Positions 11,366 through 16,910 of a stretch of DNA of 64,000 nt are shown here, piece after piece. Within the stretch, counting starts at the first letter, position 1. Each line of letters begins with the position of its first letter. Under the pieces are notes generated by a model. It was not told where the DNA came from, searched no databases, and saw only the letters and a list, made by a program, of their open reading frames with translations. The position numbers were made by a program, and so were the translations under genes. The stretch lies in NCBI RefSeq assembly GCF_002563655.1, contig NZ_PDIY01000001.1, forward strand, positions 2,888,001 to 2,952,000. The letters run 5' to 3'. The stretch is from Bacillus sp. es.034. Lineage in GTDB: Bacteria; Bacillota; Bacilli; Bacillales; Bacillaceae_B.

Positions 11366-11394
11366 AAAAAAGACCGGTCCATAACTGAACCAGT
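11366..11394 (-). terminator. Terminator after pro-peptide gene
   Basis: On the minus strand ACTGGTTC pairs with GGACCGGT (GU pairs included), followed by CTTTTTT. It closes the regulator/pro-peptide transcription unit 12 bases past the peptide stop, supporting that the peptide frame is part of that unit. Confidence 0.75.
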
Positions 11395-11405
11395 GCTGAT
11401 TATGT

Positions 11406-11522
11406 TTATAGTTTAGATGAGAACGGAGGGAATTCTTCTTCATTTGAGTTCATGACGACGACGCCGGCAAGGGCCATAGATGCGAGACTGGTAATGATCA
11501 GTAGCTTTCTCAGCTTTTTCAT
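11406..11522 (-). CDS. Candidate secreted signalling pro-peptide (38 aa)
   Basis: An unlisted short frame of 38 codons. It starts with a charged KKLRK, runs through a hydrophobic stretch (LLIITSLASMALAGVVV) that looks like a Sec signal sequence, and ends in a polar tail NSNEEEFPPFSSKL. AAGGGGGTG, overlapping the stop of the regulator gene, precedes its ATG by 7 bases; only 14 bases separate the two genes, and a terminator follows directly. This layout (HTH-TPR regulator, then tiny exported peptide) is that of RRNPP systems such as NprR-NprX and PlcR-PapR. The mature peptide cannot be defined from sequence; the C-terminal EFPPFSSKL region is the best candidate. Inference, but well supported by context. 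Confidence 0.72.
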   Translation of the reverse strand: MKKLRKLLIITSLASMALAGVVVMNSNEEEFPPFSSKL

Positions 11523-11536
11523 TTGTTATCACCCCC

Positions 11537-12793
11537 TTATAAAGGCAGCATTCCTTCATAAATGGTATTGGCTTCATTTAGATGGAATGCAGCAAGTTTG
11601 TATTTTCTGATTCTTTGATAATATTGGCCAAGGAATTTAGAATACTCAGCATATAATAGAAGAGAGCCGTTTTTCTTAAAGTAAGCCAGTGCATTCTCTT
11701 TCATAAATTTCTCAAAACCATTAGGGAATTCATTCAGTGCAAATTGATAATATGATAATTGATAGTATTTATCGGGATATCTTTCCTTTGAACAAAGCTC
11801 CAATCCTTTTGGTAACCAGAATTGAACTTTTGAACGTTGATTCAATTTGTAATACTCTTTGACAAGGGAGAGAATTGAATAGAGCTTTCCTTCGTCATCC
11901 GAAGTTTTTAATTCAATGCTTTTTTCAAAATGCCGGATGGCTTCATCACTTTTATGCATAAAGGATTTAAGGTATCCGAAATTTTGCTCGATTTTGGAAT
12001 GTAACGACGTATAATGTATGGACTGAGAAATGAAGTTAGCCCATTCATAATGCTTTAAGGCGTCCTCACTATTCCGGATTCTCCGATAGCAGATGCCCAA
12101 CAATAAATGGACCTCAGCGCACCTTTTCTGGTAATAGACCCCCTGAAAAATGGAGAGGGATTTTTCACCGTAGTAAATCGCTAAACGATACATGTGTAAA
12201 CGTGTCAGGACTAAACTGAATAGATAGTATAAATCTGCTCTTTCTTCTTCATTTACAACATTTCCAAGTACAAAGTACGTTTCGGCATCTTTTAATTCAC
12301 CTTTGGCTTTTTCGTATTCCTTCATTAAATAATAGTAATTCCCTTTATACTTGTGAAAGTAAAATTTTAGCTTGTCGGTAAGTTCCTTATAATTCGACTG
12401 AATATGGACCATATGACTGAAAGCTTCCGTGAGATTACCCCTTAGTAATTGAACCCGAAAGCAGAGAATTTTATAAAGAAAATGGGTCGTTGGATCATCG
12501 GTTTGATCAAGATCCCTCTGGATGACCTCGTGAGTGGAGCGTGCTTCATCCTCCTTATTCCAAAGCAATGCATGATTCCACTTTTCGAGAAGCTCATTCA
12601 ATTGGTTCGCGCGATCAACTGGATTATTTAAACCGAGGCGCTCGCATAGCAAATGAACGATATCATCTGAAGGTGTCACTTGGTTATTTTCGAGTTTTGA
12701 TAGATAAGATATAGAAATGATGCCCTTAGATAAATTTTGTTGTGTTAACTTTTGTTTGAGTCTGTGGAAACGGATCTTAGAACCAATCTTCAT
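11537..12793 (-). CDS. HTH-TPR regulator, RRNPP type (NprR/PlcR-like)
   Basis: 418 residues. An N-terminal XRE-type helix-turn-helix (about 5-57, LTQQNLSKGIISISYLSKLE) is followed by helical TPR-like repeats over the rest of the protein (for example KFYFHKYKGNYYYLMKEYEKA and AIYYGEKSLSIFQG). The length is closer to NprR (about 420) than to PlcR (about 285). Proteins of this architecture bind a re-imported oligopeptide with the TPRs and DNA with the HTH. The adjacent 38-aa exported peptide is the obvious partner. A threonine aldolase gene diverges from it. Target genes are not visible beyond its own promoter region. Confidence 0.85.
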   Translation of the reverse strand: MKIGSKIRFHRLKQKLTQQNLSKGIISISYLSKLENNQVTPSDDIVHLLCERLGLNNPVDRANQLNELLEKWNHALLWNKEDEARSTHEVIQRDLDQTDDPTTHFLYKILCFRVQLLRGNLTEAFSHMVHIQSNYKELTDKLKFYFHKYKGNYYYLMKEYEKAKGELKDAETYFVLGNVVNEEERADLYYLFSLVLTRLHMYRLAIYYGEKSLSIFQGVYYQKRCAEVHLLLGICYRRIRNSEDALKHYEWANFISQSIHYTSLHSKIEQNFGYLKSFMHKSDEAIRHFEKSIELKTSDDEGKLYSILSLVKEYYKLNQRSKVQFWLPKGLELCSKERYPDKYYQLSYYQFALNEFPNGFEKFMKENALAYFKKNGSLLLYAEYSKFLGQYYQRIRKYKLAAFHLNEANTIYEGMLPL

Positions 12794-12873
12794 ATGATTC
12801 TTCTCCTCTTAAAGGATATAAAATTCCGACCTAAGGACCAGAATATTTAACATAATAACATAAAAGAGGCTGT

Positions 12874-12898
12874 TAATTTTAGAATATTCCTAAAATTA
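12874..12898. promoter_or_regulatory. Inverted repeat, possible operator of the RRNPP regulator
   Basis: TAATTTTAG and CTAAAATTA are 9-bp perfect arms 7 bases apart, in the 228-base divergent gap between the regulator and the threonine aldolase gene. AT-rich, so chance is possible; position makes it a candidate site for autoregulation. Confidence 0.4.
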
Positions 12899-13021
12899 TA
12901 ATTTTAATGGGTAGAAAGAAGGTATTTTGGTTATTTGAATGGTTTTATTTCACCATGATTCATCTATCAATATCCTTTGTTATAATGGATCTAGGGAAAG
13001 TTATAGAGGAGGATTGTCATT

Positions 13022-14563: not shown

Positions 14564-14968
14564 ATGTTAAATAAGTTTTTGTCAAGTATCGGTATAGGTC
14601 ATGTGAAGGTGGATACAATCGTGCACACGACAGAGATTTCACCTGGCGACCAAATCAAGGGGGATGTCGTCTTAAAGGGGGGAATGGCCGATCAACCGGT
14701 GAATGAAGTTCGACTATTACTTCTCCTAAAGTATGAACAAGATAAACAGGATAGTGATTTTTCTTTTCATGAGAAGGATTTAAATACGCTCACACTAGAC
14801 AGTATAGGGACGATTAAGGCTGGGGAGGAAAAAAGGATTCCATTTGAATTCCCTACAGATGCCCGTCACCCTAAGACGACTGATACGGAACAAACCATTT
14901 TAAGGACAACGGTGGATATACCCCAAGCCGTGGACCCCACAGATGAGGACAGTATATTTGTCCGGTGA
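14564..14968 (+). CDS. Spo0M-like protein, N-terminal arrestin-like half only
   Basis: 134 residues that match the first half of sporulation-control protein Spo0M: FLSSIGIGHVKVDT at the start, EISPGDQIKGDVVLKGG, and a VDPTDEDSIFV end of the first arrestin-like beta-sandwich. Full Spo0M proteins are about 250 residues with a second sandwich. Here the stop comes exactly at the domain boundary and a strong terminator starts 6 bases later, so the C-terminal half is absent rather than frameshifted. It may be a functional single-domain paralogue or a deletion product. Confidence 0.8.
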   Translation: MLNKFLSSIGIGHVKVDTIVHTTEISPGDQIKGDVVLKGGMADQPVNEVRLLLLLKYEQDKQDSDFSFHEKDLNTLTLDSIGTIKAGEEKRIPFEFPTDARHPKTTDTEQTILRTTVDIPQAVDPTDEDSIFVR

Positions 14969-15013: not shown

Positions 15014-15170
15014 GAATGTTTTATAGATACAGGAGTGATGAATGGAGAAGGAAAGAGTACTAAGTTCTTATTGAAATCCATAAAAACCCAAGTTAAAATG
15101 TAGTAAGCGCATACATTCAAAAAATTCAGAATTTAATGTATGTAAAATCATTGGAAAAGGGAGGAATTTG

Positions 15171-16910
15171 ATGGGTGGAATATGGTTAGCAGTCATAGGG
15201 GGTATCGTGTTTCTAATAGGGTATAGATATTATTCGACTCTTATTGCGGAGAGAGTGTACAGGCTCGATCCGAATTACGTGACACCCTCTCACCAGTATA
15301 AAGACGGAGTGGACTTCGTACCGACGAATAAATTTGTCCTTTGGGGGCATCATTTCACTTCGGTTGCAGGTGCTGCTCCTATTGTAGGACCGGCTATAGC
15401 CGTGTATTGGGGATGGCTTCCTGCTTTTCTTTGGGTGATATTCGGTACTGTGTTTGCAGCGGGAGTGCATGATTTCGGTACCCTTGTGCTGTCAGTTCGA
15501 AATAAAGGACAGTCTGTTGGTTCATTAGCCAATAAGTTGATAGGAAAGAGGGCTAAGGTACTTTTTTTATTCATTATTTTAATTCTTGTATTAATGGTTA
15601 ATGCGGTTTTTGCCTGGGTCATTGCGAATTTATTCATTACGTTCCCGGCAAGTGTATTATCTGTATTCATTCAAATTCCGCTGGCTGTATGGATCGGGTA
15701 CTCCGTCTACAAACGTAACGGAAGCATGTTATTACCTTCCATCGTGGCTCTCGGTGTCATGTACGCATCAGCGGTGATCGCAAGCCGGGTAGATTTCCTG
15801 CAAATTGATCTGGTCCGATATTTCGGTGGGCAGGAAGCGACTTCATTATTTGGTTTAAGTTCCACGAGCATGGCTTTCCTTGTGTGGATCGTTATTCTGA
15901 TGATTTATGTGTACATCGCTTCCATCCTCCCCGTATGGAAACTATTACAGCCTCGAGATTATATTAATTCACATCAGCTGATCGTGGGTCTTGGATTGCT
16001 GTATCTCGGTCTCCTATTTACTAACCCAGAGATCACTGCTCCGATGACAAATGGATCTGCAGATGTTTCTTGGTTTCCATTATTATTTATTACGATTGCG
16101 TGCGGTGCGATTTCAGGTTTCCACGGACTGGTGTCATCCGGGACCTCTTCAAAGCAGCTGAACAAGGAAACGGATGCCCGATTCGTCGGTTATTTAGGAG
16201 CGGTAGGGGAAGGGGCACTTGCCCTGATTGCCATCATTGCCTGTATTACATTTTTTCCTAACGTAGAAGAATTCCAAGCGACCTACAGTGGATTTGCTGC
16301 AGCCAGTGGAGCGGGATTGGGTGTCTTCATTCAAGGGGCAGGACAACTTGCGACAGGTGTGGGGATTCCCGCAGATATTGCCGCAACGATCGTTTCAGTC
16401 ATCATTGTAAGCTTCGCGGCCACCACCCTGGATTCATCTGTTCGTCTGATGCGATATATCATTTCTGAATTGGGAGAGGAGTACAAAGTACTCTCATTAA
16501 CTAATGCACACGTTGCGACTACGATTGCTGTCGTATCAAGTGCGGCTCTGACATTATTGCCTCAGGGCCCTAAAGGATTCGGATCAGGTGGATATCTCCT
16601 TTGGCCTTTGTTTGGAACATCGAATCAGTTGTTGGCAGGGATCAGTTTACTTCTGATTACTATTTGGCTCAAGAGACAGGGGAGGAATTATCTGGCTACA
16701 CTGATCCCGATGTTGTTCCTCATGTTTATGACCCTTTGGGCAATGATCAATCAGGTGGTCTTTGAATGGTCAGGAGCCGGGGAATCGGAAGGGAATATGC
16801 TTCTTTTCATCTTTGGAAGCATCATCTTGATCTTTACTCTGTGGATCCTCATCACAGCAGCTTCTTCCCTGTCTAAAAAAGGGGATGAGCCTTCTCAGTT
16901 CTCTGTGTAA
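15171..16910 (+). CDS. cstA: Carbon-starvation protein A, peptide/pyruvate transporter
   Basis: About 579 residues with some 15 membrane segments. The signature FVLWGHHFTSVAGAAPIVGPAIA and the later SGFHGLVSSGTSSKQ are CstA hallmarks. CstA-family proteins import peptides or pyruvate under carbon limitation. The ATG at 15171, 6 bases after GGGAGG, is preferred over the TTG at 15168. Downstream are a cory-CC-star gene and an ArsA-type ATPase gene; a terminator stands between cstA and these two. Confidence 0.95.
   Translation: MGGIWLAVIGGIVFLIGYRYYSTLIAERVYRLDPNYVTPSHQYKDGVDFVPTNKFVLWGHHFTSVAGAAPIVGPAIAVYWGWLPAFLWVIFGTVFAAGVHDFGTLVLSVRNKGQSVGSLANKLIGKRAKVLFLFIILILVLMVNAVFAWVIANLFITFPASVLSVFIQIPLAVWIGYSVYKRNGSMLLPSIVALGVMYASAVIASRVDFLQIDLVRYFGGQEATSLFGLSSTSMAFLVWIVILMIYVYIASILPVWKLLQPRDYINSHQLIVGLGLLYLGLLFTNPEITAPMTNGSADVSWFPLLFITIACGAISGFHGLVSSGTSSKQLNKETDARFVGYLGAVGEGALALIAIIACITFFPNVEEFQATYSGFAAASGAGLGVFIQGAGQLATGVGIPADIAATIVSVIIVSFAATTLDSSVRLMRYIISELGEEYKVLSLTNAHVATTIAVVSSAALTLLPQGPKGFGSGGYLLWPLFGTSNQLLAGISLLLITIWLKRQGRNYLATLIPMLFLMFMTLWAMINQVVFEWSGAGESEGNMLLFIFGSIILIFTLWILITAASSLSKKGDEPSQFSV

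Follow-up and report, generated by a model that had tools for sequence, protein, structure and literature searches.

The locus raised the question of whether a DNA-binding regulator and the very small reading frame directly behind it act together as a receptor and its exported signal. An earlier note on this DNA had described a 418-aa HTH-TPR regulator whose stop codon overlaps the ribosome site of a 38-codon frame, with a terminator behind it, and had read the two genes as an RRNPP-type pair of receptor and pro-peptide. All of these elements were seen on the minus strand of the window, i.e., the whole stretch of 64,000 nucleotides analyzed here, and the gene pair is present as described (Table 1). 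The host genome belongs to Rossellomorea (Bacillaceae; 4.5 Mb, single contig), as do its named close relatives, part of which are still filed as Bacillus sp. With a TPR receptor and an adjacent frame of the exportable type, the RRNPP assignment is supported, and the pair is most probably a quorum-sensing system of the NprR-NprX type.

Table 1. Positions in the window of the receptor gene, the pro-peptide gene and the associated elements.
Feature	Position	Strand	Basis
Regulator (receptor) gene, 418 aa, HTH-TPR, NprR-like	11537..12793	-	Pfam HTH_3 and TPR_12; PDB phmmer
Pro-peptide gene, 38 aa: KK start, hydrophobic core, acidic-aromatic-PP tail	11406..11522	-	Frame conservation, pN/pS
Predicted pheromone core EEEFPPFS, residues 28-35	11418..11441	-	Strongest constraint in the peptide
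Predicted signal peptidase I site after Ala19 (A-L-A before G)	11466..11468	-	Pattern of residues 17-20
Shine-Dalgarno stretch overlapping the receptor stop codon	11529..11538	-	Sequence; arrangement conserved
Terminator-like hairpin 3' of the peptide gene	11373..11394	-	Hairpin scan; hairpin in 32/35 loci
Conserved operator TATAATTTTAGGAATATTC, genus form TATAATTATAGGAATATTC	12882..12900	-	Pattern search, 36 genomes
Conserved -10-like stretch TATGTTATTATG, downstream of the operator	12851..12862	-	Alignment of 12 promoters, by eye
Receptor codons 381-418, where synonymous constraint is raised; a second promoter of the peptide gene or an RNA element may lie here	11540..11653	-	

The peptide frame, which encodes MKKLRKLLIITSLASMALAGVVVMNSNEEEFPPFSSKL, starts 14 nt past the receptor stop. 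The junction between both genes reads TAAGGGGGTGATAACAAATG in the window, where the Shine-Dalgarno stretch AAGGGGGTGA includes the final two bases of the receptor stop; the commonest junction among the genus loci was TAGGAGGTGA (15 of 35). The hairpins counted behind the peptide stop carry a T-rich tail and were scored with a loose home-made test, some of them being weak, and the window region holds three terminator-like sites in 1.9 kb, compared with a shuffle mean of 1.0. An M29 aminopeptidase gene lies downstream in 34 of the 35 loci, the exception (L007) being a sequence that ends too early, and the LtaE gene lies upstream in 29. Elsewhere in the window, on the plus strand, a Spo0M-like frame of 134 aa that covers part of the Pfam model (14564-14968) is followed by the carbon starvation protein CstA (15168-16910).

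Comparison of the receptor with Pfam placed HTH_3 at residues 9-55 (E 2e-7) and recognized TPR_12 (E 9.6e-12), while RNPP_C gave no match in the window receptor up to E 0.1. In a single-sequence phmmer search of the PDB, the nearest solved structures were NprR (4gpk, E 5.8e-7), with a match spanning receptor residues 67-398, and then RapH (3q15, E 7.7e-7). Kinship of the receptor with NprR/Rap is therefore evident at the sequence level, and the combination of HTH and TPR domains with these two solved relatives favors the NprR-type pair. Against it count an identity with NprR of only 23-28% and the fact that the PDB search leaves NprR and RapH unseparated. In a quick tree of 76 rows, both were basal on long branches, and their join may be false.

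The alignment of 130 receptors with NprR and RapH fragments showed that 96% of them retain Asn271, which corresponds to NprR Asn275, and that Tyr220, the counterpart of NprR Tyr223, is present in 34/34 receptors of the genus and in 91/96 from outside it, which also argues for an NprR-type pair. In NprR, Tyr223 has a role in the tetramer and in Spo0F binding alike, and Phe225 in the tetramer alone (PMC4970707). Partial loss of the tetramer residues speaks against the NprR-type pair: the Phe225 position is occupied in the genus by Gln (27) or Asn (7), that of Tyr165 lacks conservation, and at that of Trp167, 33 of the 34 genus receptors have an aromatic residue (Tyr 30, Phe 3) and one has His. 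The HTH core is among the best-kept regions; for example, Ser27, Tyr30, Ser32 and Glu35 are found in 100% of the 130 receptors and Arg11 in 99%.

The earlier note had named two findings that would refute its reading, the absence of a conserved short frame after orthologous regulators and a lack of coding constraint in the frame, and the reading passed both tests. The receptor is encoded in 34 of 36 genus genomes (identity 47-100%; cut by a contig end in G010), and a frame of 37-44 aa lies 11-15 nt behind its stop in all 34. A small frame that is basic and hydrophobic and has a ribosome site was recognized behind 34/34 genus orthologues, on the opposite strand in 0/34 and in shuffled DNA in 0/340, with filter thresholds that were fixed once the genus loci had been inspected for the first time. 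Three of the ten diverged receptor paralogues in the genus passed this filter, and the two own-genome paralogues examined had no small frame with this layout; these paralogue results count against the NprR-type pair. Downstream of a receptor paralogue in G004 (L059), a frame with four copies of [SG]DEDYPDILGVV[ND]PL has the look of a multi-copy signal precursor.

Two genomes depart from this pattern. G014 has only a 27% paralogue of the receptor, and its LtaE and M29 genes are still neighbors that enclose an unrelated reading frame. The receptor gene of G028 has lost its middle part and retains 75 C-terminal codons; in this genome, paralogues are also present, the peptide frame and both neighbor genes are whole, and the operator has decayed to three mismatches, as judged by eye. 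The receptor remnant and the peptide of this single draft genome lie on the minus strand of L054 (G028:C22:98500-102500) at ~1660-2010, and G028 is a possible sender without a receiver.

Over 27 copies of 38 codons, pN/pS was 0.32 for codons 2-27, which make up the signal part, and 0.175 for the tail (codons 28-38), and the two other frames of the peptide region gave values above 1 (1.22 and 2.44; 27 equal-length copies). The peptide frame is thus under purifying selection, which is strongest in the tail. In the main clade, EE[ED]FPP[FY]S is followed in the tail by two or three variable residues (ends SSKL, STKL, SGKL, SSTL, SVKQ and SVK), and in the deep clade, with receptor identities of 47-48%, the tail consists of EEDLPP or DEDLPP plus a different end. 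The proposal that a tail ending in EFPPFSSKL gives the signal was adjusted with regard to its last residues. Since these vary and EE[ED]FPP[FY]S is the most constrained stretch, the signal may differ from the extreme C-terminus of the pro-peptide, and the pheromone core is predicted near EEEFPPFS.

Export potential was judged by charge, hydrophobicity and a cleavage-like site. Residues 17-20 read ALSG, ALAG, ALGG, ALTA, AFAG, TLAG or AIAG in 28/28 copies tallied, the small-x-small type preferred by signal peptidase I. The window pro-peptide starts with KK and has a Gly behind its hydrophobic stretch, as do NprR and PlcR pro-peptides (PMC9765709); together with the selection acting on the tail, these traits favor the NprR-type pair.

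A further constrained stretch lies just upstream of the peptide gene. Synonymous codon identity in receptor codons 381-418 was 0.688 among 26 orthologues, whereas other 38-codon windows averaged 0.515 (sd 0.037, maximum 0.580), and fourfold sites gave 0.65-0.66 versus a mean of 0.42. An internal promoter or RNA element is a possible explanation; nprX of B. thuringiensis has extra SigH and SigE promoters (PMC4147580). Inspection of these codons by eye yielded no convincing match to a SigH or SigE promoter and, because no clear promoter sequence was found, only the constraint is claimed.

A profile search of 397 genomes of the order revealed strong receptor relatives (E up to 1e-60) in 140, to which Rossellomorea itself contributes 16, and in 46 of 135 genera. 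The 96 receptors compared from outside the genus comprise 16 loci returned by this search and 80 hand-picked among the matches listed, a non-random sample to whose hand-picked part two genomes contribute two loci each. A signal-peptide-like small frame, defined by a basic start, a hydrophobic stretch and a ribosome site, was present behind 74/96 of them, on the opposite strand in 0/96 and in shuffled DNA in 7/960; the value of 74 may be low because frames above 80 aa fell outside the filter. Along with the peptide behind every genus receptor, this favors the NprR-type pair. One such long frame, of 137 aa with repeated DEE[FL]PPPLAP units, was seen behind a 31% identical receptor on the Mesobacillus foraminis plasmid NZ_CP033045 (L171, 2763-3176).

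Twelve pro-peptides of the relatives repeat the tail core within one chain, and tandem core repeats are known in NprR, Rap, PlcR and AimR pro-peptides (PMC9765709). An acidic-x-P core was found in 59 of 69 different outside tails and in at most 23 shuffled ones, using a pattern (an acidic residue, one or two residues, Pro, then D/E/P/R/K/S/Q) that was written after seeing the tails. The comparison across the 130 receptors suggests that such a core is common to these signals. Tails of this kind are in keeping with NprX SKPDIVG, similar in build though without the acidic residue, and with PapR ADLPFEF, and this again favors the NprR-type pair. In phage records, no match was found. The replicon NZ_CP089998.1, named a Cytobacillus spongiae plasmid (L169; 689,878 bp), contains the whole chromosomal neighborhood of the locus, and its peptide recurs unchanged in two Rossellomorea genomes (L020, L021); the replicon is perhaps mislabelled or misassembled.

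With regard to novelty, the label "uncatalogued" given to the pair is unsupported, because NprR-type systems from many genera have already been covered by published surveys: Felipe-Ruiz et al. 2022 report NprR in 21 genera (PMC9765709), and the library of Bernard et al. 2023, which includes unannotated pro-peptides, has an NprR cluster (PMC10075063). The expectation that the peptide would be missing from most annotations was borne out by a single record only, C. spongiae NZ_CP089998, whose gene table is known to be incomplete. Literature searches with core and tail motifs returned only unrelated papers, none on signalling by title, and those on Rossellomorea quorum sensing gave none on this system, judged by title; no paper at all came up on RRNPP in Bacillus vietnamensis or on an NprX propeptide in Geobacillus.

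When set beside known systems, the locus has the TPR receptor and the adjacent small gene for a pro-peptide of predicted export that characterize RRNPP(A) systems. It resembles NprR-NprX in its N-terminal HTH and NprR/Rap-type core of ~420 aa, as seen by Pfam and the PDB search, in the co-oriented small pro-peptide with a Sec-like signal, and in the kept Tyr223 and Asn275 counterparts. The PlcR-box-like operator before the receptor and the synonymous constraint before the peptide likewise recall the activation of nprR by PlcR and the extra nprX promoters (PMC4147580). It differs from NprR-NprX in the low receptor identity, in its core (EEEFPPFS instead of SKPDIVG), in the M29 aminopeptidase downstream in place of the protease gene nprA, and in the absence of Phe225 and Tyr165. 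PlcR-PapR is also an HTH-TPR activator with a peptide, its PapR core resembles the acidic-x-P core and the PlcR box resembles the operator described below; however, PlcR is shorter (~290 aa, five TPR, RNPP_C), whereas the window receptor has 418 aa and leaves RNPP_C unmatched. Rap-Phr shares the TPR receptor and the exported peptide downstream, although Rap, in contrast to the window receptor, has no DNA-binding HTH domain (PMC9765709).

Two systems on a plasmid of Priestia koreensis FS-1 are named NprR-NprX in PMC10075063. One of them (L170) has a receptor 28% identical to that of the window, followed by a 42-aa frame ending in SEEEFPEPTVAQVLI, and receptor L163 very probably represents the other. 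In the quick tree, both receptors share one large group with the window receptor; the two systems differ from the present one in being plasmid-borne and distant within that group.

For export, processing, re-import, binding, the direction of the switch and its targets, we infer the following course. The peptide would be made from the transcript of the receptor, perhaps also from its own promoter, and the pro-peptide would be exported through Sec and cut after Ala19. Trimming to a short form around EEEFPPFS would be followed by re-import through an oligopeptide permease; the own genome encodes four oligopeptide-binding proteins of the Pfam family of permease substrate-binding proteins, a further point in favor of the NprR-type pair. 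The mature peptide would be bound in the groove of the TPR domain, and binding would switch the receptor between a peptide-free form, possibly acting on Spo0F, and a DNA-binding form.

Three other explanations were weighed against this one. The region has many frames of similar size, so that a chance reading frame behind a TPR regulator might be considered, but the conservation in 34/34 genomes, the frame-specific coding constraint and the near-zero opposite-strand and shuffle controls refute it, and its probability is negligible. The single predicted hydrophobic segment in 38 aa would fit a small membrane protein or toxin without signal function, co-transcribed with its regulator. This we consider very unlikely in view of a polar tail under tighter constraint than the hydrophobic part, the retention of a signal peptidase site with small residues, and a tail core that is tandemly repeated in 12 relatives, as in the NprR, Rap, PlcR and AimR pro-peptides described in PMC9765709.

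A Rap-Phr-like function, in which the main effect of the peptide would be to release Spo0F or some other partner of the receptor, with DNA binding as a secondary activity, carries more weight: the PDB search puts Rap nearly level with NprR, and the Tyr223 counterpart is kept while the tetramer residue Phe225 is not. Nevertheless, the HTH domain, which Rap proteins do not have in the account given by PMC9765709, is among the best-conserved parts of the receptor, and we regard this alternative as unlikely compared with an NprR-NprX-type pair.

The receptor gene is preceded by a conserved operator, kept as a block in an alignment of 12 promoters while its flanks diverge. All 34 receptor-bearing genomes, that of the window included, contain the 19-mer TATAATTATAGGAATATTC, 31 of them exactly and 3 with a single mismatch; it adjoins the receptor in 33 and in G010 lies on another contig than the cut receptor. 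Allowing up to two mismatches, it was found in neither of the receptor-less genomes G014 and G028. The operator pattern gave 78 matches in the 36 genomes versus 16 for the reversed control. It is an imperfect dyad (12/18 self-matches) that shares its length and TAT...ATA ends with the PlcR box TATGNANNNNANCATA as printed in PMC4147580. Among the 96 relatives outside the genus, none scored above 15/18, and 15 is within the shuffled range; the operator is therefore a genus feature. Promoter scans near the -10-like stretch performed no better than chance, and interpretations of the operator as a SigH -35 element, PerR box or CodY box were dropped after comparison by eye with the consensus sequences.

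Related boxes lie 32-39 nt before the starts of PlcR-like genes, in 29/30 loci with at most five mismatches and in 27/30 with at most four. The products of these genes match Pfam RNPP_C, with PlcR as the best PDB hit (E 2.4e-15), and the family has five matches in the own genome and up to eight in others, with two to eight in many genomes. One such regulator (L183:2893-3771, plus strand; G000:C1:1068892-1069770) has a near-identical operator 38 nt before its start, and a similar box, also present in G030, lies ~130 nt upstream (2018-2037) of a 108-aa protein without a Pfam match (L183:1564-1890, minus strand). Reverse-oriented boxes were further found at -227 to -234 upstream of a secreted S8 protease in 27/30 genomes. 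They show up to four mismatches to a two-fold degenerate form, a level that shuffles reach in 24/600, and the box-bearing PlcR-like and protease loci are related, which makes the counts non-independent. At L180:1728-3017 (plus strand), two opposed boxes lie 200-420 nt upstream (G000:C1:2526723-2526917) of such a protease of ~1,450 codons, one of them at a constant place in 27/30 genomes. As evidence for this receptor, the protease boxes were dropped, since they are kept in the receptor-less G028.

Two modes of control of the receptor gene are suggested by these patterns. Its operator stays TATAATTATAGGAATATTC while the boxes of PlcR-like genes vary between genomes, which favors autoregulation; the resemblance of the operator to those boxes favors a PlcR-like protein as the regulator. 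The nprR gene of B. thuringiensis has PlcR as its activator and is not autoregulated (PMC4147580), and PlcR-like control in the present case would be parallel. Tentatively, a two-tier cascade might extend beyond the B. cereus group, in which a PlcR-like tier would switch on an NprR-like tier, and this hierarchy, along with the acidic-x-Pro core common to NprX, PapR and these peptides, might be ancestral to Bacillaceae; we hold this to be possible, though rather doubtful. As part of such a cascade in Rossellomorea, ATATAAYTNNAGGMATAT would stand for an 18-bp operator family common to the PlcR-like regulators, the NprR-like pair and, at a third site in the own genome, the S8 protease.

Altogether, the pair belongs to a known kind of signalling system and adds to it a well-conserved signal and a testable regulatory link. 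A receptor-peptide pair with a near-constant signal across most of the genus is suited to tests with synthetic peptides, and the acidic-x-Pro core would help to predict mature peptides. G028, in which the receptor is lost yet the peptide kept, would offer a natural case of a sender unable to listen, and the candidate operator lets the place of the pair in a regulatory cascade be tested.
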